A stretch of 33,112 bases of DNA, taken from positions 1 through 33,112 of the forward strand of contig JAFGXX010000124.1 in the NCBI GenBank assembly GCA_016936435.1. Direction: 5' to 3'. The notes beneath the pieces are model-generated. The model was not told the origin of the DNA and ran no database searches. It worked only from the letters and a program-made list of their open reading frames with translations. Shown here in pieces: positions 5,626 to 30,321 of this stretch. The DNA is from Bacteroidales bacterium. GTDB taxonomy: Bacteria; Bacteroidota; Bacteroidia; Bacteroidales; VadinHA17. Every line of letters starts with the position of its first letter. The stretch's first letter is position 1. Position numbers and translations under genes: made by a program.

Positions 5626-5684
5626 TCCCACCCACTCACTCACTCACTCACCTACCCACTCACCACTCACCACTCACTACTCAT
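5626..5684 (+). repeat. Low-complexity CACT/CACTCA tract
   Basis: The short gap between two convergent genes, together with the last codons of the reverse-strand protease gene, is a run of irregular CACTCA/CCACTCA units with no G from 5626 to 5684. A 4-bp (CACT) phase is followed by CCACTCA-like units. The complementary pattern GGGTGAGTGGGAG recurs at 6843-6931 on the other side of yugP-yidD. Confidence 0.8.
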
Positions 5685-6366
5685 CCCTCGCGCCTGTAAA
5701 TATCATTACATAATACAGAAGCGTTGCAAGTGAACCGACAGCTGCCACCACATAGGTTGTCGCTGCCCATTTAAGGGCATCCTGAGCTTTGTCGTGGTTC
5801 TGGTATGAGGTAATACCAGCATTTGAAAGCCATGCCAGGGCCCGCTGCGATGCGTTGAATTCAACAGGTAGGGTGATGAAACTAAAGATCGTTGTGAGGG
5901 CGAATAGAACTATTCCTGCCAGCAGCAGCGCCGGGAAGGTGTTGACAAGAAGGATCCCGGCGAGAAGCACCCACTGAACCCATTTCGATGAAAAGCTTAC
6001 CACCGGCACCATCTTTGACCTGAAACCCAGCCATGCATAGGCTGTGGCATGCTGAACGGCATGTCCGGTCTCGTGTGCTGCCACCGCAGCGGCGGAGATG
6101 CTCCTTCCGTTATATACTTCGGGGCTGAGATTTATTGTTTTCTTTTCGGGATTGTAATGATCGGTCAGAAAACCCGGAACACTTTCAACCTGAACATCAT
6201 ATATTCCGTTGTCGCGCAGCATCCGTACTGCCACATCGCGTCCCGACATTCCGTTATCGACTGGTATTTTCGAGTATTTTTTGAATTTCGATTTCAAGGT
6301 GGCGCTCACAATCCAGCTCAGGAGCATCACTGCTATAAAAATTATCCACATTCCTGCATTTGCCAT
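5677..6366 (-). CDS. Membrane zinc metallopeptidase, YugP family
   Basis: This is a predicted neutral zinc metallopeptidase of the YugP-like family (Pfam Peptidase_M membrane type, PF04298), 229 residues. An N-terminal membrane helix (about 6-22) is followed by the conserved domain with the zinc motif HETGH at 98-102 (catalytic Glu99) and, after it, paired hydrophobic helices (about 130-165 and 205-225). The flanking AAAVAAHETGHAVQHA and the downstream LPVEFNASQRAL (where a third ligand is expected) fit the family closely. The physiological substrate is not known. It is convergent with the methyltransferase gene, and its last codons run into the CACT-rich repeat tract, so the C-terminus (TGARDE) may be variable between strains. 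Confidence 0.9.
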   Translation of the reverse strand: MANAGMWIIFIAVMLLSWIVSATLKSKFKKYSKIPVDNGMSGRDVAVRMLRDNGIYDVQVESVPGFLTDHYNPEKKTINLSPEVYNGRSISAAAVAAHETGHAVQHATAYAWLGFRSKMVPVVSFSSKWVQWVLLAGILLVNTFPALLLAGIVLFALTTIFSFITLPVEFNASQRALAWLSNAGITSYQNHDKAQDALKWAATTYVVAAVGSLATLLYYVMIFTGARDE

Positions 6367-14059: not shown

Positions 14060-15151
14060 TTGAAAACAAAGATAGTCAGAGAGCTGGTTTTAACGTTTTT
14101 AATTTTTGCATTGTCGGTTTCCGCCTTCGGGCTGGGAACGAATCAGGAGACTCACGGGACAGAACACGGTGGCACTGAGAAAAAATTTGATGCGAGCTCC
14201 TTTATTCTTGACCATGTTGTCGATTCGCACGAATGGCATATCATCACTATTGGCGAGGGAGCCGGCGAGAAACATATTGCCCTCTATCTTCCGGTAATAC
14301 TTTACAGCAGAGAAAAAGGTCTTGATGTCTTCTCTTCGAAAAAACTTGCTCACGGTCATGTTTATAAAGGCTACAGGCTCGAGGAAGAAGGTGATTTCAA
14401 AGGGAAGATACTGAATGTGAACGCCGCAGGTGTGGCCGACACTGAAAACAGGCCGCTCGACTTCTCGGTCACGAAGACCGTGGTGGGAATGATCTTTGCA
14501 GCTATCGTCGGTCTGTGGATCTTTCTCTCCCTGGCACGGTCCTATAAAAAGAGCGGAATAAGTCACCCCAGAGGTATTCAAAGCTTTCTTGAACCTGTTG
14601 TGCTCTTTATCCGCGACGATATTGCTTTACCCAATATCGGGGAACATAAGTATGAAAAGTACATGCCCTACCTGCTTTCAGTCTTCTTTTTTATACTCCT
14701 CAACAACATCATGGGTTTGATACCCTTTCCTCCTCCTTTCGGTGCCAACGTCACCGGCAACATAGGAGTAACATTCGTTCTGGCCCTTTTTACCTTTCTG
14801 ATAACACAGTTCAGCGGTAATAAAAACCACTGGAAACATGTTTTTGCAGCCCCCGGCGTACCCACCTGGCTTCTGCCGATCATGATCCCCGTCGAGCTCA
14901 TAGGACTTATCTCCAAACCCTTTGCCCTGATGATCCGTCTCTTTGCGAACATCACAGCAGGTCATATCATTGTGTTGAGTCTTATCTGTCTGATATTCAT
15001 TTTTGATTCGGTATGGGTATCGCCTGTATCGATAATATTTGTGGTCTTCATGGATTGCATCGAGTTGTTCGTTGCATTCCTCCAGGCATATATTTTTACT
15101 CTTCTTTCAGCGCTCTTCATCGGAATGGCAACGGCAGAAGAACATCATTAA
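14060..15151 (+). CDS. atpB: F0F1 ATP synthase subunit a
   Basis: Subunit a forms the stationary proton half-channels next to the c-ring. The C-terminal half carries the family motif MIPVELIGLISKPFALMIRL followed by FANITAGH, with the essential Arg in MIRLFANITAGH. About seven hydrophobic helices are visible. The 363-residue length and the N-terminal signal-peptide-like segment (to about residue 22), with a His-rich periplasmic stretch after it, are usual for Bacteroidota AtpB. It begins at TTG 14060, 12 bp after the AtpI stop, and no ATG exists in frame before the first F0 helix. It is followed by atpE after 18 bp. Confidence 0.95.
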   Translation: MKTKIVRELVLTFLIFALSVSAFGLGTNQETHGTEHGGTEKKFDASSFILDHVVDSHEWHIITIGEGAGEKHIALYLPVILYSREKGLDVFSSKKLAHGHVYKGYRLEEEGDFKGKILNVNAAGVADTENRPLDFSVTKTVVGMIFAAIVGLWIFLSLARSYKKSGISHPRGIQSFLEPVVLFIRDDIALPNIGEHKYEKYMPYLLSVFFFILLNNIMGLIPFPPPFGANVTGNIGVTFVLALFTFLITQFSGNKNHWKHVFAAPGVPTWLLPIMIPVELIGLISKPFALMIRLFANITAGHIIVLSLICLIFIFDSVWVSPVSIIFVVFMDCIELFVAFLQAYIFTLLSALFIGMATAEEHH

Positions 15152-15154
15152 TAA

Positions 15155-15388
<234 letters not shown>

Positions 15389-15400
15389 TTGGTTAAGAAA

Positions 15401-15440
15401 AAGATGAAGCCTGCAACGGTTGGTTGCAGGTCTTCATTTT
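15401..15440 (+). terminator. Strong hairpin with T-run between atpE and atpF
   Basis: ATGAAG-CCTGCAAC (15404-15417) pairs with GTTGCAGG-t-CTTCAT (15423-15437): a 14-bp stem with one bulged T and the loop GGTTG. It is followed by TTTT (15437-15440) and preceded by AAAAAG. This has the shape of a Rho-independent terminator or transcript-stabilising hairpin, placed 13 bp after the atpE stop codon. Confidence 0.78.
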
Positions 15441-15468
15441 AAACATCTAAGTCTTTAAACGGTAAACT

Positions 15469-15984
15469 ATGATATACCTAGCAAACAGTCTTACATCTCC
15501 GGGAATAGGAATGGTTATCTGGGCTTTTCTTATTTTCGGGATCTTCTTTCTGGTCCTGGCTAAATTCGGATGGAAGCCGATCCTGTCGGCCGTAAAGGCA
15601 AGAGAGGAAATGATAAAAGGCTCTCTTGAGTCTGCAGCCCGGGCAAGGGAGGAAATGAAAAAGCTCCAGGGCGACAATGAGCTGATAATAAAGAGAGCCC
15701 GCGATGAAAGGGAAGTTCTGCTGAAGGAAGCCCGCGAAGTGCGCGAGAAACTCATTGCCGACGCCAAGGGAAAAGCTTCAGAGGAAGCCGAAAAAATAGT
15801 TGAAAAGGCAAAGACAGCAATAGAAAGGGAAAAAGCTAAGGCAATGTCGGAAATTCAACAACAGGTAACAACCCTGTCTATTGAAATAGCATCCAGGATC
15901 ATCGGTGAGAAGCTGAGCAAAACAAAGGAACAGGAAGAGCTCATCAGCCAGTACCTGAAAGAAATCAACCTTAACAAGAACTGA
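15469..15984 (+). CDS. atpF: F0F1 ATP synthase subunit b
   Basis: Subunit b is the peripheral stalk linking F0 to F1. It has one membrane helix (about 14-33, WAFLIFGIFFLVLAKFGWKPI), then an uninterrupted charged helix that continues to the C-terminus. The WKPI motif after the membrane and the RIIGEKL segment are standard. Length 171 is normal. It starts 80 bp after atpE, beyond the hairpin, without a recognisable -7 box, so it depends on read-through. The atpH gene follows after 14 bp. Confidence 0.95.
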   Translation: MIYLANSLTSPGIGMVIWAFLIFGIFFLVLAKFGWKPILSAVKAREEMIKGSLESAARAREEMKKLQGDNELIIKRARDEREVLLKEAREVREKLIADAKGKASEEAEKIVEKAKTAIEREKAKAMSEIQQQVTTLSIEIASRIIGEKLSKTKEQEELISQYLKEINLNKN

Positions 15985-15998
15985 GTCAGGACAAAGTA

Positions 15999-16547
15999 AT
16001 GAACGACAGCAAAATATCAGTCAGATATGCCAGGGCACTGTTCAGTTCAGCTGCTGATAAAGGGGAACTGGAAAAGATCTTCGATGACATGAAATATATT
16101 TCAGAACTCTGCAGGATCCCTGAGGTTAAGGAACTGATTGATAATCCGGTCATTGTACCCTCAAAAAAGAAACAGATTCTGCGCTCCCTAAGCGGTGAAA
16201 AGGTACGCGATCTGACACTTTCGCTAATCGACCTTGTTGTCACTAACGGAAGAGAGAAATTCATACCCGCAATAGCCCGCGATTTCATCAGGGAAACAAA
16301 AACATATAAGGGGATCACGGAATCGGTCCTTACCACAGCAGTAGAAATTAACGACAACATCAGGTCCCGTATTATAGATCTTATACGTGATATCTTTAAC
16401 ACAAAAGTGGAACTGAAGGAAGAAATTGACAAAGATATTATCGGAGGTTTTATCCTGAAGATTGAAGACAGTTACATTGACGCCAGTGTCAGGAAAAAAC
16501 TCAGGACAATTGAAAAGGCACTGAAGGGGAGTTCCCTGACAGCCTGA
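15999..16547 (+). CDS. atpH: F0F1 ATP synthase subunit delta
   Basis: Delta (OSCP-type) caps the F1 head and binds the b stalk. The 182-residue product has the N-terminal six-helix domain starting [17 protein letters not shown], and the C-terminal segment [23 protein letters not shown], both typical. Usual position between atpF and atpA, with 14 bp before and 34 bp after. Confidence 0.95.
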
Positions 16548-16581
16548 TTTTACAAACCAATCAAGTATTAACAAAAAGAAT

Positions 16582-18165
16582 ATGGCAAGCATCAAACCAG
16601 CAGAAGTCTCTCATATCCTCAGACAGCAACTGGAGGGAATACAAACGGGTGTCGAACTTGAGGAGGTGGGTACCGTACTATCCGTGGGAGATGGCATAGC
16701 ACGTATTTACGGCCTTTCCAATGCACAGTCGAATGAACTGATTGAATTTGAAAACGGGATCGAGGCTATTGTCCTTAACCTCGAGGAAGACAATATAGGA
16801 GCTGTGCTGCTTGGTCCTACAGAAGAGATCAATGAAGGAGATATAGTCAAGCGCACAGGTAAAATTGCTTCTATAGGTGTGGGCGAAGGCCTTCTCGGGA
16901 GAGTTATCTCACCTACCGGACAGCCTCTCGACGGAAAAGGCCCCATCGAAGGGAAAAGATATGATTTGCCTTTCGAAAGAAAAGCCCCGGGGGTGATCTT
17001 CCGTCAGCCTGTTAAGCAGCCGCTTCAGACAGGGATAAAGGCTATCGATGCGATGATCCCGATAGGAAGAGGGCAGAGAGAGCTTATCATTGGCGACAGG
17101 CAGACCGGGAAAACGGCTATTGCTATCGATACCATAATAAACCAGAGAAGCAACTTTGAAAAAGGACAACCTGTATATTGTATTTACGTGGCTGTAGGTC
17201 AGAAAGGATCGACAGTTGCAAATATAGCCCGTACTCTCGAAGAGCATGGCGCTTTCGAATATACGGTAATAGTCCTTGCCACTGCCTCTGACCCTGCTGC
17301 ATCACAGTTTTATGCACCCTTTGCGGGAGCTGCAATAGGCGAATTCTTCAGGGATACCGGCCGCGATGCCCTTATAATATATGATGACCTTTCAAAGCAG
17401 GCTGTTTCCTACCGCGAAGTCTCCCTTCTGCTTCGTCGTCCGCCAGGCCGCGAAGCCTACCCCGGCGATGTCTTTTACCTCCATTCGCGGCTTCTTGAAA
17501 GAGCTGCCAAGATAATCGAATCCGACGAAGTGGCTTCCAAAATGAACGACCTCCCCGAATCAATAAGACCAATGATTAAAGGAGGAGGGTCTCTTACCGC
17601 TCTTCCCATCATAGAAACACAGGCCGGTGACGTTTCTGCATATATTCCGACAAACGTGATCTCAATCACCGACGGCCAGATCTTCCTTGAATCGAACCTC
17701 TTCAATGCCGGCGTCAGACCCGCTATCAACGTCGGTATATCAGTGTCGAGGGTGGGAGGAAACGCTCAGATAAAATCGATGAAGAAAATCGCCGGTACGC
17801 TTAAAGTAGACCAGGCACAGTATCGTGAGCTTGAAGCTTTCTCAAAGTTCGGGTCCGATCTTGACGCCTCGACACTTGCAATCCTTAACAAAGGATCAAA
17901 GAACGTCGAGATACTAAAACAGGGACAGTATGCACCCGTCGCTGTTGAAAAACAGGTAGCTATTATCTTCTGCGGGACCATGGGACTTCTGAAGGATGTT
18001 CCTGTAAACAAAGTTAAAGAGTTCGAGAAAGAATTTATCGAATACCTCGACCTTAAGCACCGCGACATACTCGATAACCTCCGTGACGGTAATCTTAACG
18101 ACAAGATCACATCAACTCTCGAAAAAGTTGCTCTTGAGATTGCTTCAAAATTCAGGCCTCAGTAG
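16582..18165 (+). CDS. atpA: F0F1 ATP synthase subunit alpha
   Basis: Alpha is the non-catalytic nucleotide-binding F1 subunit. P-loop GDRQTGKT is at residues 171-178, and the arginine finger is Arg390 in [13 protein letters not shown]. The full-length 527-residue chain contains [20 protein letters not shown] and the C-terminal helical domain. All core motifs are intact, and the neighbours atpH and atpG lie 34-35 bp away. It is cytoplasmic and membrane-attached through the stalks. Confidence 0.98.
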
Positions 18166-18200
18166 CCTTGTGATGTTACAGCTATAAAAGGAAACGGCAG

Positions 18201-19085
18201 ATGGCAAATTTAAAGGCAATAAGGATCAGGATAAGTTCTGTAAAATCGACGAGGCAGATCACTTCAGCCATGAAAATGGTTTCAGCTGCCAAGCTTCGGA
18301 AAGCACAGGACAAGATCCTCAGGCTCAGGCCTTATGCCAGCAAACTCAGCGAAATACTTACAGGCCTTACCTCCAGTCTTGCTGAAAACGAGATCGAGAA
18401 TATCTATGCACGTTCTGATTCAAGCGAAAAGATCCTTATTGTGGTGGTAACATCCAACAGAGGACTTTGCGGGGCTTTTAACTCGAACGTGATAAAAGAA
18501 ACCAGAAGGCTTGTCTCGGAAAAATATGAAAATCAGTTCAGAAAAGGAAATCTGTACTTTCTCGCTGTCGGTAAAAAAGGTTACGATTACCTGAGAAAGC
18601 AGAAACAGAACCTGCTTCCTCCGCAGAATGAACTCTTCAATGACCTTACCTTTGATAACGCTTCATCACTCGCTGAAGATATAATGAACAGGTTTCTTTC
18701 AGGCGAATTTGACAGGGTGGAAATTATCTATAACCAGTTCAAAAATGCTGCAGTACAGAACCTTACCAGTGAATTGTTCCTTCCCTTAACTGCAGCAGCT
18801 TCAGGTAAGGCTGATTTTACTCCTGTAGACTATATTTATGAACCTTCAGGGGAAAAAATCATTAAAGAACTGATCCCCAAATCGCTTAAGATTCAATTTT
18901 ATAAAGCGATACTTAACTCATTCGTGGCTGAACACGGTGCCAGGATGACCGCTATGCACAAAGCTACCGATAATGCTACTGAAATGATCCGCGACCTGAC
19001 CCTTCAATACAACAAAGCGCGGCAGGCTGCCATTACAAACCAGATTCTGGAAGTTGTCAGCGGTGCGGAAGCTCTCAAAGGTTAA
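18201..19085 (+). CDS. atpG: F0F1 ATP synthase subunit gamma
   Basis: Gamma is the central rotor shaft. The N-terminal helix RISSVKSTRQITSAMKMVSA and the C-terminal helix HGARMTAMHKATDNATEMIR are the conserved coiled-coil strands, with the SNRGLCGAFNSN block between. Length 294. It closes the first atp cluster; atpD and atpC are not next but lie 1.8 kb further, after a prenyl synthase and a reverse gene. Confidence 0.97.
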   Translation: MANLKAIRIRISSVKSTRQITSAMKMVSAAKLRKAQDKILRLRPYASKLSEILTGLTSSLAENEIENIYARSDSSEKILIVVVTSNRGLCGAFNSNVIKETRRLVSEKYENQFRKGNLYFLAVGKKGYDYLRKQKQNLLPPQNELFNDLTFDNASSLAEDIMNRFLSGEFDRVEIIYNQFKNAAVQNLTSELFLPLTAAASGKADFTPVDYIYEPSGEKIIKELIPKSLKIQFYKAILNSFVAEHGARMTAMHKATDNATEMIRDLTLQYNKARQAAITNQILEVVSGAEALKG

Positions 19086-19120
19086 CAGGCATTTTCTGAT
19101 CACTTATCGTTCATGATACC

Positions 19121-20095
19121 ATGTACAATCAGGCACATCTGAAAGAATTAGTCGACAAGGCTCTGGCAAATTATTCATATAATAATGAAGCTGAGAAGCT
19201 TATCGACCCGATAAAATATATTCTCTCCCAGGGAGGAAAGAGACTTCGGCCGGTCCTGGCCCTGATGGCCTGTAACCTCTTCACCGACAAGATAGATACT
19301 GCGGTGATACCCGCCTCGGGACTCGAGGTCTTTCACAATTTCACCCTCGTTCATGACGATATTATGGATCAGGCCGACCTCAGAAGAGGCCTGCCCACGG
19401 TGCACCGTAAATGGAACACCAGTCAGGCTATACTGTCAGGTGATGTAATGGCATTTGTTGCTAATGAATTCCTTCTTCATACCCCTCCGCAGTATTTGCA
19501 GAAGGTTCTTAGGATATTCAACAAAACAGCCATTGAAGTGTGCGTGGGTCAGCAGCTCGACATCGATTTTGAGAAGGCAACCATTATAAGGCAGGAAGAA
19601 TATATGCGGATGATCGAACTTAAGACTGCCGTTCTGATCTCTGCTTCGCTGAAGATAGGAGCAATAATAGGTTCAGCCGAAAACAAAGACTCGGACCTGC
19701 TTTATGAATTCGGTAAAAATCTCGGACTGGCCTTTCAGATACAGGACGACATTCTCGACGTATGGGGCGATGTGAAAGTGTTCGGTAAGAAATCGGGAAC
19801 CGACATTGTCAGCAACAAGAAAACCTTTCCACTTGTCATGGCAATGGAAACGGCATCAAAGGCACAGATTAAAATACTTCAGTCCCTGCAAAATGACAAA
19901 GACATTGAAGCATCCGAAAAGATCAGTAAAACCATTGAAATATACGACCAGCTGAATATCAGGGACACCACTGAAATACTTGCCTACGACTATATAAACA
20001 AAGCTTTCGGATATCTCAACAAAGTGAATGTGGATGAGACACGAAAAAAAGAGATGACAAATCTTGCCATCTCTCTGATAGGTCGCAAACAGTAA
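19121..20095 (+). CDS. Polyprenyl diphosphate synthase, probably short-chain (GGPP/FPP type)
   Basis: This trans-isoprenyl diphosphate synthase makes C15-C20 or longer prenyl diphosphates for quinones and other lipids. Both Mg-binding aspartate motifs are present: DDIMD (79-83) with LRRG following, and DDILD (209-213). Also seen are GGKRLRPVL (38-46) and KKSGTDIVSNKKTFP. The residue five before the first motif is Phe74 (HNFTLVHDD), whereas octaprenyl (IspB-type) enzymes have small residues there. By established chain-length rules this suggests a shorter product, probably GGPP, though activity must be measured. It starts 35 bp after atpG, so it may share the atp transcript, and it is convergent with the next gene (13 bp between stops). 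Confidence 0.9.
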   Translation: MYNQAHLKELVDKALANYSYNNEAEKLIDPIKYILSQGGKRLRPVLALMACNLFTDKIDTAVIPASGLEVFHNFTLVHDDIMDQADLRRGLPTVHRKWNTSQAILSGDVMAFVANEFLLHTPPQYLQKVLRIFNKTAIEVCVGQQLDIDFEKATIIRQEEYMRMIELKTAVLISASLKIGAIIGSAENKDSDLLYEFGKNLGLAFQIQDDILDVWGDVKVFGKKSGTDIVSNKKTFPLVMAMETASKAQIKILQSLQNDKDIEASEKISKTIEIYDQLNIRDTTEILAYDYINKAFGYLNKVNVDETRKKEMTNLAISLIGRKQ

Positions 20096-20108
20096 AGATC
20101 AACTCCTG

Positions 20109-20678
20109 TTATTCATGTTTCTTCAGCCAGTCGATGTTAATGAAAACACCGGCATTGAACATGAACTGGCTATATTTGCTTAATATATATTTAGCCTCGG
20201 CAAAAACATCGAACTGATCTGATACCTTGATATAGGTGCCTGCACCAATGTTCCACCCGAAGGCATTATCGGTTTCCTTGAAAACCTCGCCGGTCTCTTC
20301 CAGGTATTTATCTTTTTTCCATGTAAGAAGGAAATCCAGTCCTGTCAGAGCGTAAACTTCAAACCGGTCGAGGGAATTGAAAACATAATGACCGTTAATG
20401 TCGAACATCACTGAGGAAACTGTTGTCTTGAACATCTCTTCTTTGGTCACATTGGGATAAAAACCGGTTATACTGGCAGCTACATGGATAGGAACGGTTA
20501 TTTCATATATACCTTCGAGAAAACCGGCAATATGACCACTCCTGTTGTAATCAAATTCCATTTCATGGAACCAGTAACCTGTTCCGTAGGCCAGGCCGCC
20601 CCCTATCTTTGTGAACTGTGCATTTACTGCTGTTAACGACAATGAAATCAGCAGCAGGCTGAGAAAAAATCTTTTCAT
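20109..20678 (-). CDS. Small outer-membrane beta-barrel protein
   Basis: The product has 189 residues with a clear signal peptide (MKRFFLSLLLISLSLTAVNAQ, cleavage likely after Ala before Gln). It is a probable eight-strand barrel: alternating aromatic/polar strands such as VFAEAKYILSKY and AGVFINIDWL. It lacks a C-terminal peptidoglycan-binding domain. The start was set at 20678 instead of 20702 because the former directly precedes a good signal sequence. A promoter with both -33 TTG and a near-consensus -7 box lies upstream. It sits convergently after the prenyl synthase and divergently from atpD. No function can be assigned. Confidence 0.72.
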   Translation of the reverse strand: MKRFFLSLLLISLSLTAVNAQFTKIGGGLAYGTGYWFHEMEFDYNRSGHIAGFLEGIYEITVPIHVAASITGFYPNVTKEEMFKTTVSSVMFDINGHYVFNSLDRFEVYALTGLDFLLTWKKDKYLEETGEVFKETDNAFGWNIGAGTYIKVSDQFDVFAEAKYILSKYSQFMFNAGVFINIDWLKKHE

Positions 20679-20716
20679 AAGGTTGAGTTTTAATTTTACC
20701 AATCCGTTTCTGAATA

Positions 20717-20746
20717 TAAAGATAAATTATTGGTTCTTTTCGGCAA
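20717..20746 (-). promoter_or_regulatory. Promoter (-33 and -7) for the outer-membrane protein gene
   Basis: On the reverse strand, TTG (complement of 20744-20746) is followed after 19 bp by TATCTTTA (20717-20724), one mismatch from TAnnTTTG. The ATG lies 38 bp further on. Both boxes at normal spacing make this one of the better promoters here. Confidence 0.45.
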
Positions 20747-20835
20747 GCAGGAAACCAACCATTTTTTTCATAGTTGATTTTTACGGAAGAAGTCAATAAT
20801 TGAATAAAGAAAAGAGCATCATCTGCAAAATTTGT

Positions 20836-20843
20836 TACATTTG
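20836..20843 (+). promoter_or_regulatory. -7 promoter element for atpD-atpC
   Basis: TACATTTG matches TAnnTTTG exactly, 26 bp before the atpD ATG. With a reverse-strand gene between atpG and atpD, it shows that the beta and epsilon subunits are transcribed on their own. No -33 TTG was found at 17-23 bp. Confidence 0.65.
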
Positions 20844-20857
20844 TAACCACTGTATAA

Positions 20858-22378
<1,521 letters not shown>

Positions 22379-22646: not shown

Positions 22647-24062
22647 ATGACCCCAGATGAATTCCGGAAAAATGCCCATGAGCTTGTCGAGTGGATGGCT
22701 TCTTATATGGAGAATGTAGAAAGTTATCCGGTTAAATCACAGGCGCGACCGGGAGAAATATTTGCAAAGCTTCCCGATGCCCCACCGCTGAAAAGAGAAT
22801 CTTTCAGCTCATTAATAAAAGACCTTGAAGAAATAATCATGCCCGGGATAACTCACTGGCAGAGCCCCGATTTCTATGCATACTTCCCTGCTAATACCAG
22901 TCCTCCGTCGATACTTGCCGAAATGATCATCGCCACCCTCGGTGCCCAGTGCATGAACTGGGAAACATCTCCGGCAGCTGCCGAGCTGGAAGAGAAAATG
23001 ATGAACTGGCTCAGATCAATGACGGGCCTTCCTGATACTTTCGAGGGAGTGATACAGGACAGCGCATCAACAGCCACACTGGCTGCCATTGTTACCGCAA
23101 GAGAGAAAACCACCGCATTCACTGCAAATAACGAAGGCCTTAACACAGGCCGGCCACTCCGCGTTTATTGTTCATCACAGGGCCACTCCTCAATAGAAAA
23201 AGGAGTCAGGATCAGTGGCATCGGACGGAAAAACCTTGTCAGAATACCGGTTAAGGACGATTTTTCGATGGACCCTGAAGCACTGAAGAAGGCTGTGGAA
23301 GAAGACAGGGCTAAGGGCTTTTTACCCTGTTGCGTGATTGCAACACTAGGCACAACAGGAACAACGGCTGTAGACCTTTTAAGACCGATAGGAGAGATTT
23401 GCAGCAAAAACCATATATGGCTCCATATTGATGCCGCTATGGCCGGTACAGCTCTTATTTTGCCCGAATTCAGGTGGATGCTCGATGGCAGTGAATATAT
23501 CGACAGCTTTCTGTTCAATCCCCATAAATGGATGTTCACAAATTTCGACTGCACCGCTTTCTTCACCAGGGATGCCGACAGTCTGATAAGAACATTTGAG
23601 ATACTGCCCGAATACCTCAAGACAAGGACCAGGGGACAGGTAAATGATTACCGCGACTGGGGGATTCCGCTTGGAAGAAGGTTCAGGGCACTGAAACTGT
23701 GGAGCGTGATAAGATCTTACGGTGTGGAAGGTCTTCAGGAAAAGATAAGACAGCATATTTCATTCGCAATGCGTCTTAAAGAAATGATCTCGGAAGAAGA
23801 TGATTTTGAGATCCTTGCACCGGTAGTCATTAACGTGGTATGCTTCAGGTTCATTCCTGCAGGTTACGACGGGCAACAACTTAATGAACTGAATGAAAAA
23901 CTCAACCACCGGCTTAATGACAGCGGTAAGATCTATCTTTCACATACGGTTCTTAACGGAAAATATACTTTGAGAATGGTTACGGGGCAGACCAATGTAA
24001 CTCTGTCCCATGTTGAAAAAGCCTGGGCTTTGATAAAGGAAAATGCCCGTTCGCTGTTGTGA
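22647..24062 (+). CDS. PLP-dependent aromatic-L-amino-acid decarboxylase family protein
   Basis: This group II decarboxylase resembles animal and plant aromatic amino acid decarboxylases across its full length (471 residues). Seen motifs: HWQSPDFYAYFP, QDSASTATLAA, His180 in SSQGHSS (stacks on the cofactor), Asp262 in HIDAAMAG and Lys294 in NPHKWMFTNFDC (Schiff base). Also present is DYRDWGIPLGRRFRALKLW. Tyr323 in PEYLKT lies 29 residues after the lysine, as does the catalytic Tyr332 of human DDC, so decarboxylation is favoured over aldehyde formation. The substrate (Phe, Tyr, Trp or another) is not determined. It follows atpC by 10 bp; its stop abuts the stop of the convergent gene with no gap. 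Confidence 0.88.
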   Translation: MTPDEFRKNAHELVEWMASYMENVESYPVKSQARPGEIFAKLPDAPPLKRESFSSLIKDLEEIIMPGITHWQSPDFYAYFPANTSPPSILAEMIIATLGAQCMNWETSPAAAELEEKMMNWLRSMTGLPDTFEGVIQDSASTATLAAIVTAREKTTAFTANNEGLNTGRPLRVYCSSQGHSSIEKGVRISGIGRKNLVRIPVKDDFSMDPEALKKAVEEDRAKGFLPCCVIATLGTTGTTAVDLLRPIGEICSKNHIWLHIDAAMAGTALILPEFRWMLDGSEYIDSFLFNPHKWMFTNFDCTAFFTRDADSLIRTFEILPEYLKTRTRGQVNDYRDWGIPLGRRFRALKLWSVIRSYGVEGLQEKIRQHISFAMRLKEMISEEDDFEILAPVVINVVCFRFIPAGYDGQQLNELNEKLNHRLNDSGKIYLSHTVLNGKYTLRMVTGQTNVTLSHVEKAWALIKENARSLL

Positions 24063-26960
24063 TCATAGCCGAGGCTTTCTTCCTATGCTCATCCCGTATA
24101 TATCTATGCTGATAATGGCCTCCAGAAGCGGTTTCGTTTCTCCTTTTATCCAGGCTGCCCGGGCTCCGGCCGACACCATGTAAGGAAGCCTGAGAATGTG
24201 GAAATCGGATATCAGTTCTGCACCATAGGAGCTGAAAGACTCAGAAAATTCCCTTACGGAGGTTACCTCCAGACCCTTATCCCCCATTTCGAGATAGTAG
24301 TTATTGGTTCCCTTGCCATAATCGTAAAATACACCTGCCCGGAATCTTTTTATGTAAAGAAGGCTGCCGATATTCAGGTCGGGATAAAAAAGAGGAGCTA
24401 TGTAGTCGGCTGAAAAATATGTCAGATCTTCTGAGATAATATTCCTGTAACCCCGGGGGAAGTTGATAAGGTTAAAGTTGAGAAATTTAACAATTGTCTG
24501 AAATTCATTTTCATACCTTATTTTTATAACGTTGTTCCGCATAAAACCGGGGAAATAAAACATTGTCCTGAGGGTGAATGAGGATCCGAAATTTTCCTGG
24601 TCGAAAGGGTAAGCTGAATAATACAGGTCGACAACCTGCGCCAGCCGGGGGTGAATATCACGTATGGCCATTGGGTAGGAATTGGAGAAATAGAAACGCC
24701 CTGCCATCTGTGTCTGGCCGTAATCATAGCCTGTACTCTCCGTGGAATAGATATAATCGTTTTTATATATGACGTGCATTGAAGGCCTTAGGTATAGGTT
24801 GAATTTTCCTGACCTGAATCTGAGAGGGATGGAAAGGGAACTGTTAACTGTTAAGCCGGGATTAATAACTGACGGATCACCGGTTGAGACATTGGGCTTT
24901 GAGATCATGGGATTGTCACCCCAGTCGAGTCTTGTTTCAAGGACCGGGTACCAGCCCTGCCAGGTTATCTGCGTATGTATTTTATGAAGCTTGTCGGAAT
25001 ATTCGTAACCTGCCGACGTGATAAGAGTGCTGAGCCGGTTCTGGCTGAAGAGTGTGAACCCCGGCTTAACAGCTGTCAGCGGATCAGCCTGTACCTGGTC
25101 GAGATCGGCATAGAATGGCATCCAGCTGTGAAATCCGAACAGATTCAGTCCTTTACGGTATCTCTCCGGATTATACAGGACATCAGGATCCTCCCCGCCG
25201 TTCTTTTTGGGGACCCTGACCTGATCGGACAGGTAAAACGCCGGTTCAAATTCAAGACTGGCAGGCTGGCCTTCCTTAATGCTGGTGTGGCATATATTGT
25301 TTCCCGAAGAGGAATAATCGCTGAAAATGACTTTTCTACCATCTAACAGTATATCAGTGGCCCCGAACCTGGAGTTGGTGATCTTAATATTCTTTTTTCC
25401 TGGCGTTAATACATAGAGGTTCTCCGTCCCGCAGTGGGAGCTTACGTAGAAAAGGGAATCATTCCTCTGAACTGCCGACTGGTAATCTTCAGAGCTCTCG
25501 GGTAACAATATGCTCCATGTTTGTGTGGAGCTTTTAAACGATACTATTCCTTCTCCTTTTCCGGTAAGGGAGATAAATGTTACTGTGTTGTTGTCGGCCG
25601 ACCAGTTGGGCTTCTGAAGATACCTGTTGTCGGGTACAGGAAGGCTTTTGATGATCTTCCCCGTGAGCGTATTGATAAGAACAAGATTGTTACGGTTGTC
25701 GGGCGTGTTTTCGGTGGCTGCCACAACCTTGCCGTCGGGTGAAATGCCGACGGACATATACCTGCTTTTCCAGGAGATCTGCCGGTGGGTTCCATCTCTC
25801 AGGTTCATAAGCCTGATGACCGAGTAATTCCTGTTATTCCACCGGGGATCAGTCTGAAGCTCAACCCATGCCAGCATCATGTTTCCTGCCGAGACAGAGA
25901 ATGGATAGACATAGCCCGGAACATGAAGCCTCTCCTCGCTACCGTTCTTACTGTCGATCATTACGAATTCAGGTGGGTTGTAAAGTGTGGTCTTGACCGC
26001 AGCATACCTGTTTTCGCCTGTCTTTACGGGGCTGTGGTAACTGGCATATTTTTTTCTTTTTGGGGGATTTATTTCATCGTAACCTTTAACCTCTTTTACT
26101 GCATTTTCATTCTTCCATGCCGCCCCCAGCGTATCAAATGCCTCAATGAAAAGTCTTCGCTTGTTAAGACCTGTATTATGTCGTAGACTCAATCCTACAG
26201 GGTTGATGAGGTAGGGCGCATTGGCAGTAAGTTTCAGAGCCTTGTTCCAGGTGCGGGGGTCGTATTTTGAATATATCCATGAAACGATCTGATAGCCCGA
26301 TTGATAATGATCGGGAACATAATTTTTAAATGATCCGTTTACGATCTTGTCATATTTATACATTTCACCCTTTTCAACGGAGATTGCCCTGAGCCCTTTC
26401 TGGAATGAAGCTGCCCTTCCCCTTCCCGACTCCGAGAGCACCGATTCTGCCATCACAGCCTCTCCTTCCATATACCATAGAGGCAGTAAGGCTGCCATGG
26501 CCCCGGGGAACTGCTGTCCTGCAATAAATGACATTGCTTTTGAAAAGCCGCTGTTCAGCGATTCCATCTGGTACACATGCGTCAATTCATGCAGGGCGAG
26601 CTGCCTGAAAGGATCGAGAGGTACTGAATTCTGTTCGGGGGTGGGATAGATCTCAATTCTTCGGGGAGCCCATGCCACGTAACCGTTAGATTGTGTGGTG
26701 AAATTGTGAATGACAACCGGGATCCTGTATTTCTTTTGAGGAAAGAGCAGGCTCAGGTCAGAGTACGCCCTGTCGAGTGATTTTGCAAATTCGATACCCT
26801 GATCGCCGTATTTCTCAGGGTAAATTACCCTGAACCTTTCTGTCTTTATCTGAAGCCACCTAAGACTGGCCGGATCCTGACCCGTGTCATAGTACTGCCC
26901 CCGTACCGTGATAGTGAACGGCAGCAACAATAACATTATCAGGGAAGCCTTAAAATTCAT
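24063..26960 (-). CDS. Outer-membrane protein: gluzincin peptidase domain + beta-propeller + C-terminal barrel
   Basis: This is a 965-residue exported protein. A signal peptide (to about residue 21) is followed by a peptidase MA-like gluzincin domain with HELTH at 124-128 (zinc ligands His124/His128, catalytic Glu125). Its probable third ligand is Glu165 or Glu167 in LWYMEGEAVMAES. Residues about 320-590 show WD40/TolB-like propeller repeats (SVGISPDGKVVAATEN, PNWSADNNTVTFIS, DILLDGRKVIFSDYS). From about 640 to the end the chain is rich in aromatic/polar beta-strands ending in LLEAIISIDIYGMSIGRK, like an outer-membrane barrel. The order suggests a protease anchored in the outer membrane. A strong -7 box precedes it. 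Function is unknown; domain limits are by eye. Confidence 0.75.
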   Translation of the reverse strand: MNFKASLIMLLLLPFTITVRGQYYDTGQDPASLRWLQIKTERFRVIYPEKYGDQGIEFAKSLDRAYSDLSLLFPQKKYRIPVVIHNFTTQSNGYVAWAPRRIEIYPTPEQNSVPLDPFRQLALHELTHVYQMESLNSGFSKAMSFIAGQQFPGAMAALLPLWYMEGEAVMAESVLSESGRGRAASFQKGLRAISVEKGEMYKYDKIVNGSFKNYVPDHYQSGYQIVSWIYSKYDPRTWNKALKLTANAPYLINPVGLSLRHNTGLNKRRLFIEAFDTLGAAWKNENAVKEVKGYDEINPPKRKKYASYHSPVKTGENRYAAVKTTLYNPPEFVMIDSKNGSEERLHVPGYVYPFSVSAGNMMLAWVELQTDPRWNNRNYSVIRLMNLRDGTHRQISWKSRYMSVGISPDGKVVAATENTPDNRNNLVLINTLTGKIIKSLPVPDNRYLQKPNWSADNNTVTFISLTGKGEGIVSFKSSTQTWSILLPESSEDYQSAVQRNDSLFYVSSHCGTENLYVLTPGKKNIKITNSRFGATDILLDGRKVIFSDYSSSGNNICHTSIKEGQPASLEFEPAFYLSDQVRVPKKNGGEDPDVLYNPERYRKGLNLFGFHSWMPFYADLDQVQADPLTAVKPGFTLFSQNRLSTLITSAGYEYSDKLHKIHTQITWQGWYPVLETRLDWGDNPMISKPNVSTGDPSVINPGLTVNSSLSIPLRFRSGKFNLYLRPSMHVIYKNDYIYSTESTGYDYGQTQMAGRFYFSNSYPMAIRDIHPRLAQVVDLYYSAYPFDQENFGSSFTLRTMFYFPGFMRNNVIKIRYENEFQTIVKFLNFNLINFPRGYRNIISEDLTYFSADYIAPLFYPDLNIGSLLYIKRFRAGVFYDYGKGTNNYYLEMGDKGLEVTSVREFSESFSSYGAELISDFHILRLPYMVSAGARAAWIKGETKPLLEAIISIDIYGMSIGRKPRL

Positions 26961-27099: not shown

Positions 27100-30000
27100 A
27101 TGAAACGATTCAGGCTAATAAACAACATAACGGGATGGATTGTTTTTGCCATTGCCGCTTTTACGTATCTCATGACCATCGAACCCACCACAAGTCTGTG
27201 GGATTGCGGTGAATTTATAGCTTCAGCATACAAGCTCGAGATAGGCCATCCTCCCGGAAGCCAGGTGTTTATGATCCTTGCCAGGTTCTTCACCCTTTTC
27301 GCCGGCAAAGATGTATCGCGTGTTGCTGCAATGGTAAACGCATTTTCTGCCATTGTCAGTGCCTTTACAATTTTGTTCCTTTTCTGGACTATAACGCATC
27401 TTGCCCGTAAGATTATTGCGAAAAATGAGAACGATTTAAGCATTGCAGGGATAATAACAATAATCTCGGCCGGAGTTGTTGGTGCACTGGCATTTACATT
27501 TTCCGACTCTTTCTGGTTCTCGGCTGTGGAAGGTGAAGTATATGCAACCTCCTCCCTGTTTACGGCTGTGGTTTTCTGGGCCATACTAAAGTGGGAAGAT
27601 GTTGCCGATGAAGCTCATGCCGACAAATGGCTAATCCTGATAGCCTATCTTATGGGGCTTTCGATAGGGGTTCATCTTCTGAACCTTCTGGCCCTTCCTG
27701 CTATTGTGCTCGTCTATTATTTCAGGAAATTTGAATTTACCTGGAAGGGACTTGTTTATTCGCTGGCAGGATCATTTGTAATGCTTGCCCTTCTTATGTG
27801 GGGTATCATGCCGGGAATAGTGAAAATCTCATCCGTGTTCGACCTCTTCTTTGTAAATTCCCTTAAGCTTCCGGCCAACTCCGGAATGATCTTTCACATA
27901 CTCATCCTGATAGCACTCTTTATCATCGCCATCAGGATGTCGGTGAAACAGGAAAAATCAACACAGCTTGCTGTTGTCTCGGCCGTCGTCCTTTTCTTTA
28001 CGGGCATCTGGGTGGTATCGGGTTCGGCTGTGATCAATATATTGATCCTGGCAGCCGTAGTGTCAGTGATATGGCTGATGGCATCGCGGAGCAGGGTCAT
28101 GCTCAACACCACTCTTACAGCAATAATGGTAATACTGATAGGCTATTCCTCCACAGCCATAATTGTAATACGTTCATCGGCAAATCCGCCTCTTAATGAA
28201 AACAATCCTTCCGATCCCTTCAACCTCTTGTATTATCTTAACAGGGAGCAATATGGTGAGAGGCCACTCATTCGGGGTGCCTGGTACAATGCACCGGTAA
28301 TTGATTACAAAGACGGGAAGCCCGTATACGTCCTTGAAAACGGGAAATATATCATTACACACAGGAATCTTGAACGCGAATATGATGAAAGATTCATAAC
28401 CCTTTTTCCGAGAATGTGGAGTGAGCAGCAGGATCATGCTGCAGTGTACAGGCAATGGGGTGGCTCGGAAGGGATTCCGGTTACCGTCACAGGGCAGTCG
28501 GGTAAGAAAACAATAATAAAGAAACCCACTTTCGGCGAGAACCTGAAGTTCATGTTCAGCTATCAGTACGGTTATATGTATTTCAGATATTTCATGTGGA
28601 ATTTTGCAGGTAAGCAGAATGACACCCAGGGAACAGGAGGTGCCGTCAACGGGAACTGGATAACAGGGATTAAGTTCCTCGACGAGCCAAGAGTGGGTAC
28701 TCCCGATATACCTGATGACCAGAGGAATGACACTTCAAGGAACCGTTATTTTCTGCTCCCCTTCCTGCTGGGAATGGCAGGGCTGTTTTTTCATCTCTTC
28801 AGGGATAACAAGAACTGGTGGATAATAATGCTGCTGTTTGTTATGACGGGGGTAGCCATTGTATTCTATCTTAACCAGTACCCGAATCAGCCCAGAGAAC
28901 GTGATTATGCCTATGTGGGATCATTTTACTTTTTCTCCGTATGGATAGGCCTCGGAGTACTTTTTATTTATGAGCTGCTATCCAGAGTTACAGGCGGAAA
29001 TATTGCTTCACCGCTTGCCGGTCTTGTGTGTATGGCAGTGCCTGTTCTGATGGGTTCTGAAAACTGGGATGATCACGACAGGTCGGGCCGCTATCTTGCC
29101 CGCGACATTGCCTTTAACTACCTTGAATCTTGTACTCCCGGTTCCATACTTTTCACAAACGGAGATAATGATACCTTTCCACTGTGGTATGCCCAGGAAG
29201 TTGAAGGTAAAAGGACCGACGTCAGAGTCTGCAATCTCATGCTGTTGAATACCGACTGGTATATAGACCAAATGAAAAGAAAAGTCTATGAATCTGAAGC
29301 CCTTCCCATTTCTTTACCGGTACAGAAATACTACGATGGTATCAACAACCAGGTATTCATTGTGGAAAAGACAAAAGACATCGTAGATATCAACACCGTT
29401 ATAGATTGGGTGAAAAGCGATAACAAAGCAACGAAAGTGCAGGTCTCCCCGAATGAACTGCTCGACATAATACCGGCAAGGAACATACGCATCCCGGTCG
29501 ATGCAGCGAAGGTATTGGCATCGGGTACAGTTAAACCCGAAGATTCAGCCAGAATAGTACCATATATCGACATAACTCTCAAAGGGAATTCGATACTTAA
29601 AAGCCAGCTGCTGGTTCTCGACATCCTTGCCCACAACGAATGGGAGAGGCCTCTTTATTTTGTCACCGGTTATCATGATGACGCCCTTGGCCTGGAAGAA
29701 TACCTCCAGCTTGAAGGACTTGCATACAGGCTGGTGCCTATTAAATCGGAAAATAAAAGCTGGCTCGAATATGGCCGGATTGACACTGATATTCTGTATG
29801 ACAACCTGATGAATAAATTTGTATGGGGAGGCGCCAATGATGAAAAAGTCAACATAGATCATCATCACAAGCGGACCCTGATGGTTGTACGGGCAAGGCT
29901 GAACTATGCGAAACTTGCTAAAGCTATGGCTGCAGAAGGCAAGAATGAAAAGGCTCTTGAAGTCCTCGATCGTTGCATGGAACTTCTACCCCTTCCCCGG

Positions 30001-30321
30001 GTTCCCTATGATCCTTATATGAACAACGTGATCGATGCCTATTTTGCTGCAGGCAACAAAGAAAAAGCAGTTCAGATGACTCGCGACATGTGTGACTTTT
30101 ATTATTCCCAGCTCGATTATTATCTGAAGCAGAAACTTCATATAGTGAACTCGGCAGAGTATTCTATAGGCTCAGCTTTTGAATATACCCGACAGGCCGG
30201 GGAAACATGTATCGGCAACGGAGAAACAGAACTTGGACTTGAGATAAGCAACAAATTGCAGGATTACTATACGAGGTATGTAGATTTTGTTAATCCGACA
30301 GCACGGCAGAGCCTCAACTGA
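27100..30321 (+). CDS. DUF2723 family GT-C-like membrane protein (putative protein glycosyltransferase)
   Basis: This is a large polytopic protein typical of Bacteroidota. The N-terminal DUF2723 domain starts with FTYLMTIEPTTSLWDCGEFI, where Asp35 and Glu38 in the first loop look like the acidic catalytic residues of GT-C lipid-sugar-dependent glycosyltransferases. HPPGSQVFMILARFF follows. About a dozen hydrophobic helices extend to about residue 650, and after that comes a soluble domain. The end (about 935-1010) has two TPR-like helical pairs (AMAAEGKNEKALEVLDRCMELL and AYFAAGNKEKAVQMTRDM). By relation to GT-C enzymes it probably transfers a sugar to exported proteins, an inference. Its stop overlaps the convergent receiver gene by 8 bp. 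Confidence 0.85.
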   Translation: MKRFRLINNITGWIVFAIAAFTYLMTIEPTTSLWDCGEFIASAYKLEIGHPPGSQVFMILARFFTLFAGKDVSRVAAMVNAFSAIVSAFTILFLFWTITHLARKIIAKNENDLSIAGIITIISAGVVGALAFTFSDSFWFSAVEGEVYATSSLFTAVVFWAILKWEDVADEAHADKWLILIAYLMGLSIGVHLLNLLALPAIVLVYYFRKFEFTWKGLVYSLAGSFVMLALLMWGIMPGIVKISSVFDLFFVNSLKLPANSGMIFHILILIALFIIAIRMSVKQEKSTQLAVVSAVVLFFTGIWVVSGSAVINILILAAVVSVIWLMASRSRVMLNTTLTAIMVILIGYSSTAIIVIRSSANPPLNENNPSDPFNLLYYLNREQYGERPLIRGAWYNAPVIDYKDGKPVYVLENGKYIITHRNLEREYDERFITLFPRMWSEQQDHAAVYRQWGGSEGIPVTVTGQSGKKTIIKKPTFGENLKFMFSYQYGYMYFRYFMWNFAGKQNDTQGTGGAVNGNWITGIKFLDEPRVGTPDIPDDQRNDTSRNRYFLLPFLLGMAGLFFHLFRDNKNWWIIMLLFVMTGVAIVFYLNQYPNQPRERDYAYVGSFYFFSVWIGLGVLFIYELLSRVTGGNIASPLAGLVCMAVPVLMGSENWDDHDRSGRYLARDIAFNYLESCTPGSILFTNGDNDTFPLWYAQEVEGKRTDVRVCNLMLLNTDWYIDQMKRKVYESEALPISLPVQKYYDGINNQVFIVEKTKDIVDINTVIDWVKSDNKATKVQVSPNELLDIIPARNIRIPVDAAKVLASGTVKPEDSARIVPYIDITLKGNSILKSQLLVLDILAHNEWERPLYFVTGYHDDALGLEEYLQLEGLAYRLVPIKSENKSWLEYGRIDTDILYDNLMNKFVWGGANDEKVNIDHHHKRTLMVVRARLNYAKLAKAMAAEGKNEKALEVLDRCMELLPLPRVPYDPYMNNVIDAYFAAGNKEKAVQMTRDMCDFYYSQLDYYLKQKLHIVNSAEYSIGSAFEYTRQAGETCIGNGETELGLEISNKLQDYYTRYVDFVNPTARQSLN

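Follow-up and report, generated by a model that had tools for sequence, protein, structure and literature searches.

A gene in the 33,112-nucleotide stretch of DNA analysed here (the window; contig JAFGXX010000124.1 of assembly GCA_016936435.1, a Bacteroidales bacterium of the VadinHA17 lineage) encodes a protein, P0001, that is probably a gluzincin of the periplasm, anchored in the outer membrane, with proteins of the envelope as its targets. A predicted zinc peptidase domain, a TolB-like propeller and an Omp85-type barrel follow one another in this single chain. The computed part of this assignment comprises the open reading frame (ORF), the invariance of the residues at the zinc site and the predicted propeller and Omp85 barrel folds. 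A first-pass annotation had described a 965-residue chain at 24063-26960 that combines a zinc peptidase, a propeller and a barrel. The ORF is real and lies on the minus strand (26960..24063), which that annotation had left out; the plus-strand frame is crowded with stops. The three-part architecture agrees with a model of the full chain, with fold matches of the propeller and the barrel, and with the invariance of the zinc motif. Coordinates of all features are given in Table 1.

The AlphaFold2 prediction of the full chain, a check that the first-pass annotation had called for, has a mean predicted local distance difference test score (pLDDT) of 87.7 and a predicted TM-score (pTM) of 0.86 and contains the N-terminal alpha/beta domain with the HELTH motif, the propeller and the barrel. 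The HELTH motif occupies residues 124-128, exactly where it had been placed by eye. In gluzincins, the helices that carry HExxH and the downstream glutamate come after mixed strands and helices. The N-terminal domain of P0001 is likewise mixed alpha/beta in the model, with HExxH and Glu165 on separate helices, so that the hallmark of gluzincins (peptidase MA), HExxH plus a downstream glutamate as third ligand on two helices, is present. When the protein was shuffled 5000 times, HExxH arose in 55 shuffles, and 0/5000 had an HExxH with an aromatic residue plus ..EG.A placed 15-70 residues after it. Motif, secondary structure and profile links support the N-terminal domain as a predicted zincin.

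Conservation is centred on the same site. H124, E125, H128, Q131, W162, E165, G166, A168 and E172 are invariant in 78/78 sequences longer than 850 amino acids (aa), the query included. The same nine residues are invariant in all 71 rows of A1, the query included; A1 consists of the query and 70 plus-strand ORFs longer than 880 aa without ambiguous residues, nine of the 79 loci found having failed these criteria. Identity to the window protein ranges from 27 to 64% in A1, and its mean over the 70 homologues is 54.7% for the peptidase, 45.7% for the barrel and 41.3% for the propeller. In 67/70 homologues the peptidase resembles that of the query more closely than the barrel does, and in 70/70 more closely than the propeller does; it is the most conserved domain. 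Scanning of 23 member N-terminal domains against Pfam at E 0.1 returned DUF2268 in seven, M9 collagenase in five, eCIS_core in three, PF13485 and DUF2201_N in one each, and two unrelated families in one each; metallopeptidases are the commonest families among them. The signal peptide reported by the first-pass annotation is accepted by eye, with a probable cleavage before Gln22 (between ..VRG and QYY) and no lipobox cysteine. Q22 is present in 76/78 of the long sequences, and the N-terminal helix is of low confidence in the full-chain model.

The region that had been called TolB/WD40-like by eye has a predicted TolB-like fold. It aligns with E. coli TolB (1crz) over 234 residues in VIA-align with a Z-score of 21.2, a root-mean-square deviation (rmsd) of 2.9 and 15% identity, and its profile matches TolB 7mx5 in the PDB with an E-value of 7.3e-9. 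P0001 shares this fold with TolB, but the match of the TolB profile TIGR02800 (E 6.5e-5) reaches 22 bits, far from the equivalog cut-off of 343, and a TolB orthologue was therefore rejected. A phmmer search of P0001 against the PDB gave no match up to E 1. In fold searches with the full chain, the 50 rows listed by each of Foldseek and VIA-align are propeller proteins by their titles and ranges; these rows are silent on the peptidase and barrel domains.

Omp85 proteins build the outer membrane and serve as gates in it. The C-terminal barrel on which the first-pass annotation had staked its architecture is predicted with 16 strands and is of Omp85 type. Folded alone, residues 596-965 give 16 main strands with a pLDDT of 88.1 and a pTM of 0.82. 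Among the matches listed by VIA-align, 50/50 are Omp85 proteins or complexes (Z-scores from 17.7 to 14.7), including BamA, SAM, TOC, TamA, FhaC and CdiB, where the identity of the SAM and TOC chains is presumed; the best of those listed is BamA of D. radiodurans (Z-score 17.7, rmsd 4.5, 283 residues). Foldseek matches the barrel to BamA 7tt7 with an E-value of 2.1e-5, and its ranks 1-46 are Omp85, CirA and BtuB appearing first at ranks 47 and 49. Closure of the barrel was read from the strand count and from these matches to Omp85 barrels. Judged in this way, and with the N-terminal domain judged by motif, secondary structure and profile links, neither of the two contrary outcomes named by the first-pass annotation, a C-terminal barrel that is not closed or a non-zinc N-terminal fold, was encountered. 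A PRGY sequence lies in the loop that joins strand 11 to strand 12 (216-226 and 246-263 in the numbering of the barrel model) and is well kept in A1 (R836 69/71, G837 62/71, Y838 68/71). The L6 motif of Omp85 proteins, which is of the (V/I)RG(F/Y) type, occupies this same loop.

In the secondary structure of the model, the last propeller strand ends at residue 560 and the first barrel strand starts at 610; no POTRA-like unit is seen in this interval, and pLDDT is low at 564-566. A stretch of about 50 residues cannot accommodate a POTRA domain, and a POTRA-bearing Omp85 of the BamA, TamA, FhaC or PlpD type was rejected on this ground. When its own genome was searched with PF01103 up to E 10, P0001 was absent from the matches, whereas other ORFs, of 840, 789 and 461 aa, exceeded the cut-off of this family. 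The Omp85 type of the barrel, which the first-pass annotation missed, would by precedent put the peptidase and the propeller in the periplasm.

Several results weigh against this assignment. P0001 exceeds no Pfam or NCBIfam cut-off, and its N-terminal domain has no Pfam match even at E 0.1. The profile of this domain finds no solved zincin in the PDB, its one match being an internal virion protein at E 1.6. Compared directly, the A1 barrel profile reaches BamA at E 0.088 and the lipoprotein-type Omp85 at 0.17, and the barrel profile has no match among PDB sequences up to E 10. The neighbours of the gene itself point to no substrate or partner. Furthermore, some copies, judged by their sequences, have a lost or altered zinc site. 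The full motif is present in 27/28 ORFs of the same class (29 same-class loci, L111-L139, of which 28 yielded a countable ORF), L135 being the one that lacks it. A tandem paralogue, L231:2410-5373 (-), has NMSRR in place of HExxH and by its sequence is a natural pseudo-peptidase; its tandem partner, L231:5399-8458 (-), has HESRH, and the host genome is without a PorV or PorU match. L234:1951-4806 (-), a divergent second family member in a genome of the same genus, has HEFRH but EGDP for EGxA and misses the conserved glutamine after HExxH.

All 79 loci of the genome scan are labelled Bacteroidota/Bacteroidetes or subgroups of it. Matches were found in 51/60 genomes by protein search, the window's own included, and in 52/60 by profile search, where the match in G036 is a weak one to the propeller of another protein. 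In a phylum-wide draw, 304/392 genomes have a profile match, many of those listed being short matches to the propeller. P0001 is the single match of the protein search within its own 257-contig genome, and the profile search adds one weak match, to the propeller only, in a 691-aa ORF.

Two sister groups emerged from the phylum search, A3 (1023-1126 aa, n=7) and A4 (939-1020 aa, n=9), both with the same peptidase, propeller and barrel. HExxH and EGxA are kept in 7/7 members of A3 and 9/9 of A4. Profiles of the peptidase domain link A1 with A4 (4.6e-37), A1 with A3 (3.4e-16) and A3 with A4 (6.5e-19). The barrels form a chain of profile links from A1 to A4 (2.9e-11), from A4 to A3 (1.1e-5) and from A3 to BamA (1.3e-7), and the A3 barrel also matches the lipoprotein-type Omp85 (3e-6); the direct links from A1 to A3 (0.012) and from A4 to BamA (0.22) are weak. 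The A3 member L140 passes the cut-off of PF13485, Peptidase_MA_2 (35.2 versus 32.4 bits); in the four further A3 members that were scanned the match stays below this value (25.9-30.6 bits), and no match was found in the four A4 members scanned. L141, also of A3, matches flagellinolysin with an E-value of 1.6e-9 and reaches 37.8 bits, where the cut-off is 205. In a tree of the peptidase domain that was built quickly and rooted at its midpoint, A3 forms one clade (support 1.0), A4 another (0.96), and A1 together with five paralogues a third (0.8). A3-type proteins (L140, L141, L208) share their domain order with P0001 and align with it in the N-terminal domain, whereas the distance from HExxH to the glutamate is 60 residues in L140 and 41 in P0001.

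From these features we infer zinc binding and catalysis, a periplasmic location, clients in the envelope and a role for the propeller in handling them. Once exported by Sec, the chain would insert its C-terminal barrel of 16 strands into the outer membrane, which would keep the propeller and, at the N-terminus, the gluzincin (HExxH...E) on the side of the periplasm. The N-terminal domains are placed there because of Omp85 precedent, including PlpD, a patatin-Omp85 whose enzymatic domain resides in the periplasm according to passages of PMC11116518. The enzyme would hydrolyse peptide bonds of outer-membrane proteins, lipoproteins or secreted proteins that are passing or stalled, and the propeller would bind or gate the client beside the active site. 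Such cleavage would be analogous to that by BepA, which excerpts of PMC13067283 describe as an M48 protease clearing stalled clients at BAM. P0001, as proposed, would resemble BepA in being a metalloprotease of the periplasm that is associated with an Omp85 protein at the outer membrane, but BepA is a separate protein that docks to BAM, whereas P0001 has an Omp85 barrel of its own. Likewise, PlpD and P0001, as proposed, both carry a periplasmic enzymatic N-terminal domain on an Omp85 barrel, PlpD having a lipase-type domain and one POTRA domain where P0001 has a zinc-peptidase-type domain and a propeller (PMC11116518, in part).

Other functions of the same architecture can be considered. An unlikely one is a role in outer-membrane assembly or in translocation, with P0001 as a fusion of the BamA-BamB kind: its zinc domain would do no more than bind clients, and their insertion or translocation would fall to the barrel. 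The Omp85 fold of the barrel is consistent with this, a BamA-BamB-like platform has been proposed for WD40-Omp85 proteins in the parts of PMC4104836 concerned, and such a factor would be an extra one beside the other PF01103 proteins of the genome. However, the invariance of Glu125 (71/71) in the most conserved domain would be unexpected if catalysis were unused, and POTRA domains are lacking. Even less probable is a surface or released protease whose N-terminal domains are exported through the barrel, following the old export model for patatin-Omp85 proteins recounted in the same survey (PMC4104836, in part). The PlpD domain has since been found to be periplasmic (PMC11116518, in part), and a folded two-domain unit of about 540 residues would have to pass through one 16-stranded barrel. 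A metal-binding pseudo-enzyme for signalling or adhesion, of which the tandem paralogue without HExxH might be an example, is very improbable for P0001 itself, given the invariance of the zinc-type residues in 71/71 rows of A1 and the presence of HExxH and EGxA in 16/16 sister sequences.

A component of the type IX secretion system (T9SS), as suggested by the A3 group with its same three domains, is a further reading that we regard as improbable. Eight A3 loci (L207-L214) were compared over surroundings of 17 kb, with family models applied at L208 only, so that the clusters elsewhere rest on blastp. Three neighbour clusters occur at 8/8 loci and a fourth at 5/8 (L207-L210 and L212). At L208, the three are PorV (NF033710, 292 bits versus 250), the T9SS-dependent M6-like inactivated (M6i) metalloprotease (NF052323, 1173 bits versus 600) and a DUF5683 protein, and the fourth is PorU (NF033707, 816 bits versus 420). 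A wider count sorted A3-type genes (68) from A1/A4-type genes (81, the window's own excluded) by eye, using the matched part of the profile and the ORF length. Among the matches listed, 65/68 A3-type genes lie within 6 kb of NF052323 on the same strand, and for the remaining 3/68 NF052323 is on a different contig of a draft genome. In contrast, 0/81 A1/A4-type genes lie beside NF052323, although 39 of them are in genomes that have it; in the A1/A4 genomes G329 and G305 it is on other contigs, and G226 has it while its A4 locus, L220, is without a member of that cluster. The window's genome encodes PorV and PorU, but NF052323 has no match there at E 1e-50, and a neighbourhood of porV, mostly porU and the M6-like gene sets A3 apart from P0001. 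Among the 60 genomes, G043 (100% complete) and G050 (98%) have an A1-type gene and no PorV or PorU match; the reverse, a PorV match without an A1-type gene, is seen in seven (G037, G038, G044, G052, G054, G056 and G058), of which G044 is 88% and G052 70% complete. Linkage and co-occurrence therefore assign the T9SS link to the A3 sister group and not to the lineage of the window, for which a T9SS component was rejected.

P0001 can be filed as a divergent member of the Omp85 superfamily with the WD40-Omp85 architecture and, by model and sequence, a predicted gluzincin-type N-terminal domain; it is assigned to no named peptidase family. PF00149 is the calcineurin-like metallophosphoesterase family and not a peptidase family. 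In the 2014 Omp85 survey of Heinz and Lithgow, it is PF00149 that defines the 'Metallo' (Omp85-metalloprotease) subfamily, which thus has the metalloprotease name in common with the predicted type of P0001 (PMC4104836, relevant passages); this label may have misled later texts. The WD40-Omp85 subfamily is described in the same passages as a propeller plus a barrel and likened to a BamA-BamB fusion. P0001 likewise has a TolB-like propeller and behind it, without POTRA, an Omp85 barrel, but a predicted gluzincin precedes the propeller, whereas the WD40-Omp85 account has propeller and barrel alone. The words 'peptidase' and 'HExxH' are absent from the main text of PMC4104836, and A1 may have been missing from its sequence set, its barrel being too divergent for direct profile detection. 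Omp85 subfamilies with odd N-termini, the WD40-like one included, are called poorly characterised in passages of PMC11116518. Among the matches listed from open-licence PMC full texts, no description of a single chain that unites a peptidase, a propeller and an Omp85 barrel was recognised. In the propeller-Omp85 group, the enzymatic domain seems to have escaped notice.

We tentatively extend the proposal to the class, with less confidence than for P0001. Bacteroidota propeller-Omp85 proteins might as a whole be anchored zinc peptidases rather than BamA-BamB-like platforms, in three old lineages, of which A3 would be an unrecognised part of the porU-porV-M6i neighbourhood and A1 its T9SS-independent counterpart. 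With the zinc site retained across three lineages of Bacteroidota, residue E125 offers direct access to the function of these proteins. If the proposal is correct, Bacteroidota have a form of proteolysis that is bound to the membrane by fusion with an Omp85 barrel, and the A3 lineage draws attention to a peptidase, so far unstudied, that is encoded next to porV and porU of the T9SS.

The P0001 gene lies between a divergent gene for a TMEM260-like protein O-mannosyltransferase, at a distance of 139 base pairs, and a convergent gene for a pyridoxal-dependent decarboxylase, the stops of the latter pair abutting at 24062/24063. Among close relatives, the former is the divergent neighbour at 58/67 loci and the latter the convergent neighbour at 55/68. 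Because these neighbours are divergent and convergent, an operon partner was rejected, and the gene is probably transcribed alone, as its own transcription unit. The genomes that keep this gene order are close relatives, and synteny alone may account for it. Across 18 A1 loci at a greater distance, the most frequent neighbour, a valyl-tRNA-synthetase-like ORF named by eye, is common to no more than five, and at 10 A4 loci no neighbour is common to more than three.

Table 1. Features of the P0001 gene, its neighbours in the window and the A3 gene neighbourhood at L208
Feature	Position	Strand	Basis
Whole ORF, protein P0001	24063..26960	minus	965 aa, ATG start
Signal peptide, residues 1-21	26898..26960	minus	by eye
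Predicted gluzincin-type peptidase domain, residues 24-290	26091..26891	minus	model, conservation, profile link to sister group
HELTH zinc motif, residues 124-128	26577..26591	minus	within helix 117-135
WYMEGEAVMAE with presumed third zinc ligand Glu165, residues 162-172	26445..26477	minus	within helix 161-174
TolB-like beta-propeller, residues 291-565	25266..26090	minus	fold match, PDB profile match
Poorly conserved linker, residues 566-600	25161..25265	minus	mean identity 15.1%, no invariant column
Predicted 16-stranded Omp85-type barrel, residues ~601-960	24081..25160	minus	predicted fold, fold matches
PRGY in barrel loop between strands 11 and 12, residues 835-838	24447..24458	minus	alignment and barrel model
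Divergent neighbour, TMEM260-like protein O-mannosyltransferase (PF11028)	27100..30321	plus	context only
Convergent neighbour, pyridoxal-dependent decarboxylase (PF00282)	22647..24062	plus	context only
A3 peptidase-propeller-Omp85 gene with porV, M6-like, DUF5683 and porU genes	L208:195-11293		family models

Elsewhere in the window, 5677-6366 (-) encodes a small multi-span membrane protein with HETGH, which presumably resembles a zinc peptidase of the YugP type. Genes named by eye as those of an ATP synthase occupy 14060-22378. By the same reading, a polyprenyl-synthetase-like gene lies within this region at 19121-20095 (+), and an ORF resembling an outer-membrane protein is found at 20109-20702 (-), ahead of a beta-subunit-like gene at 20870.

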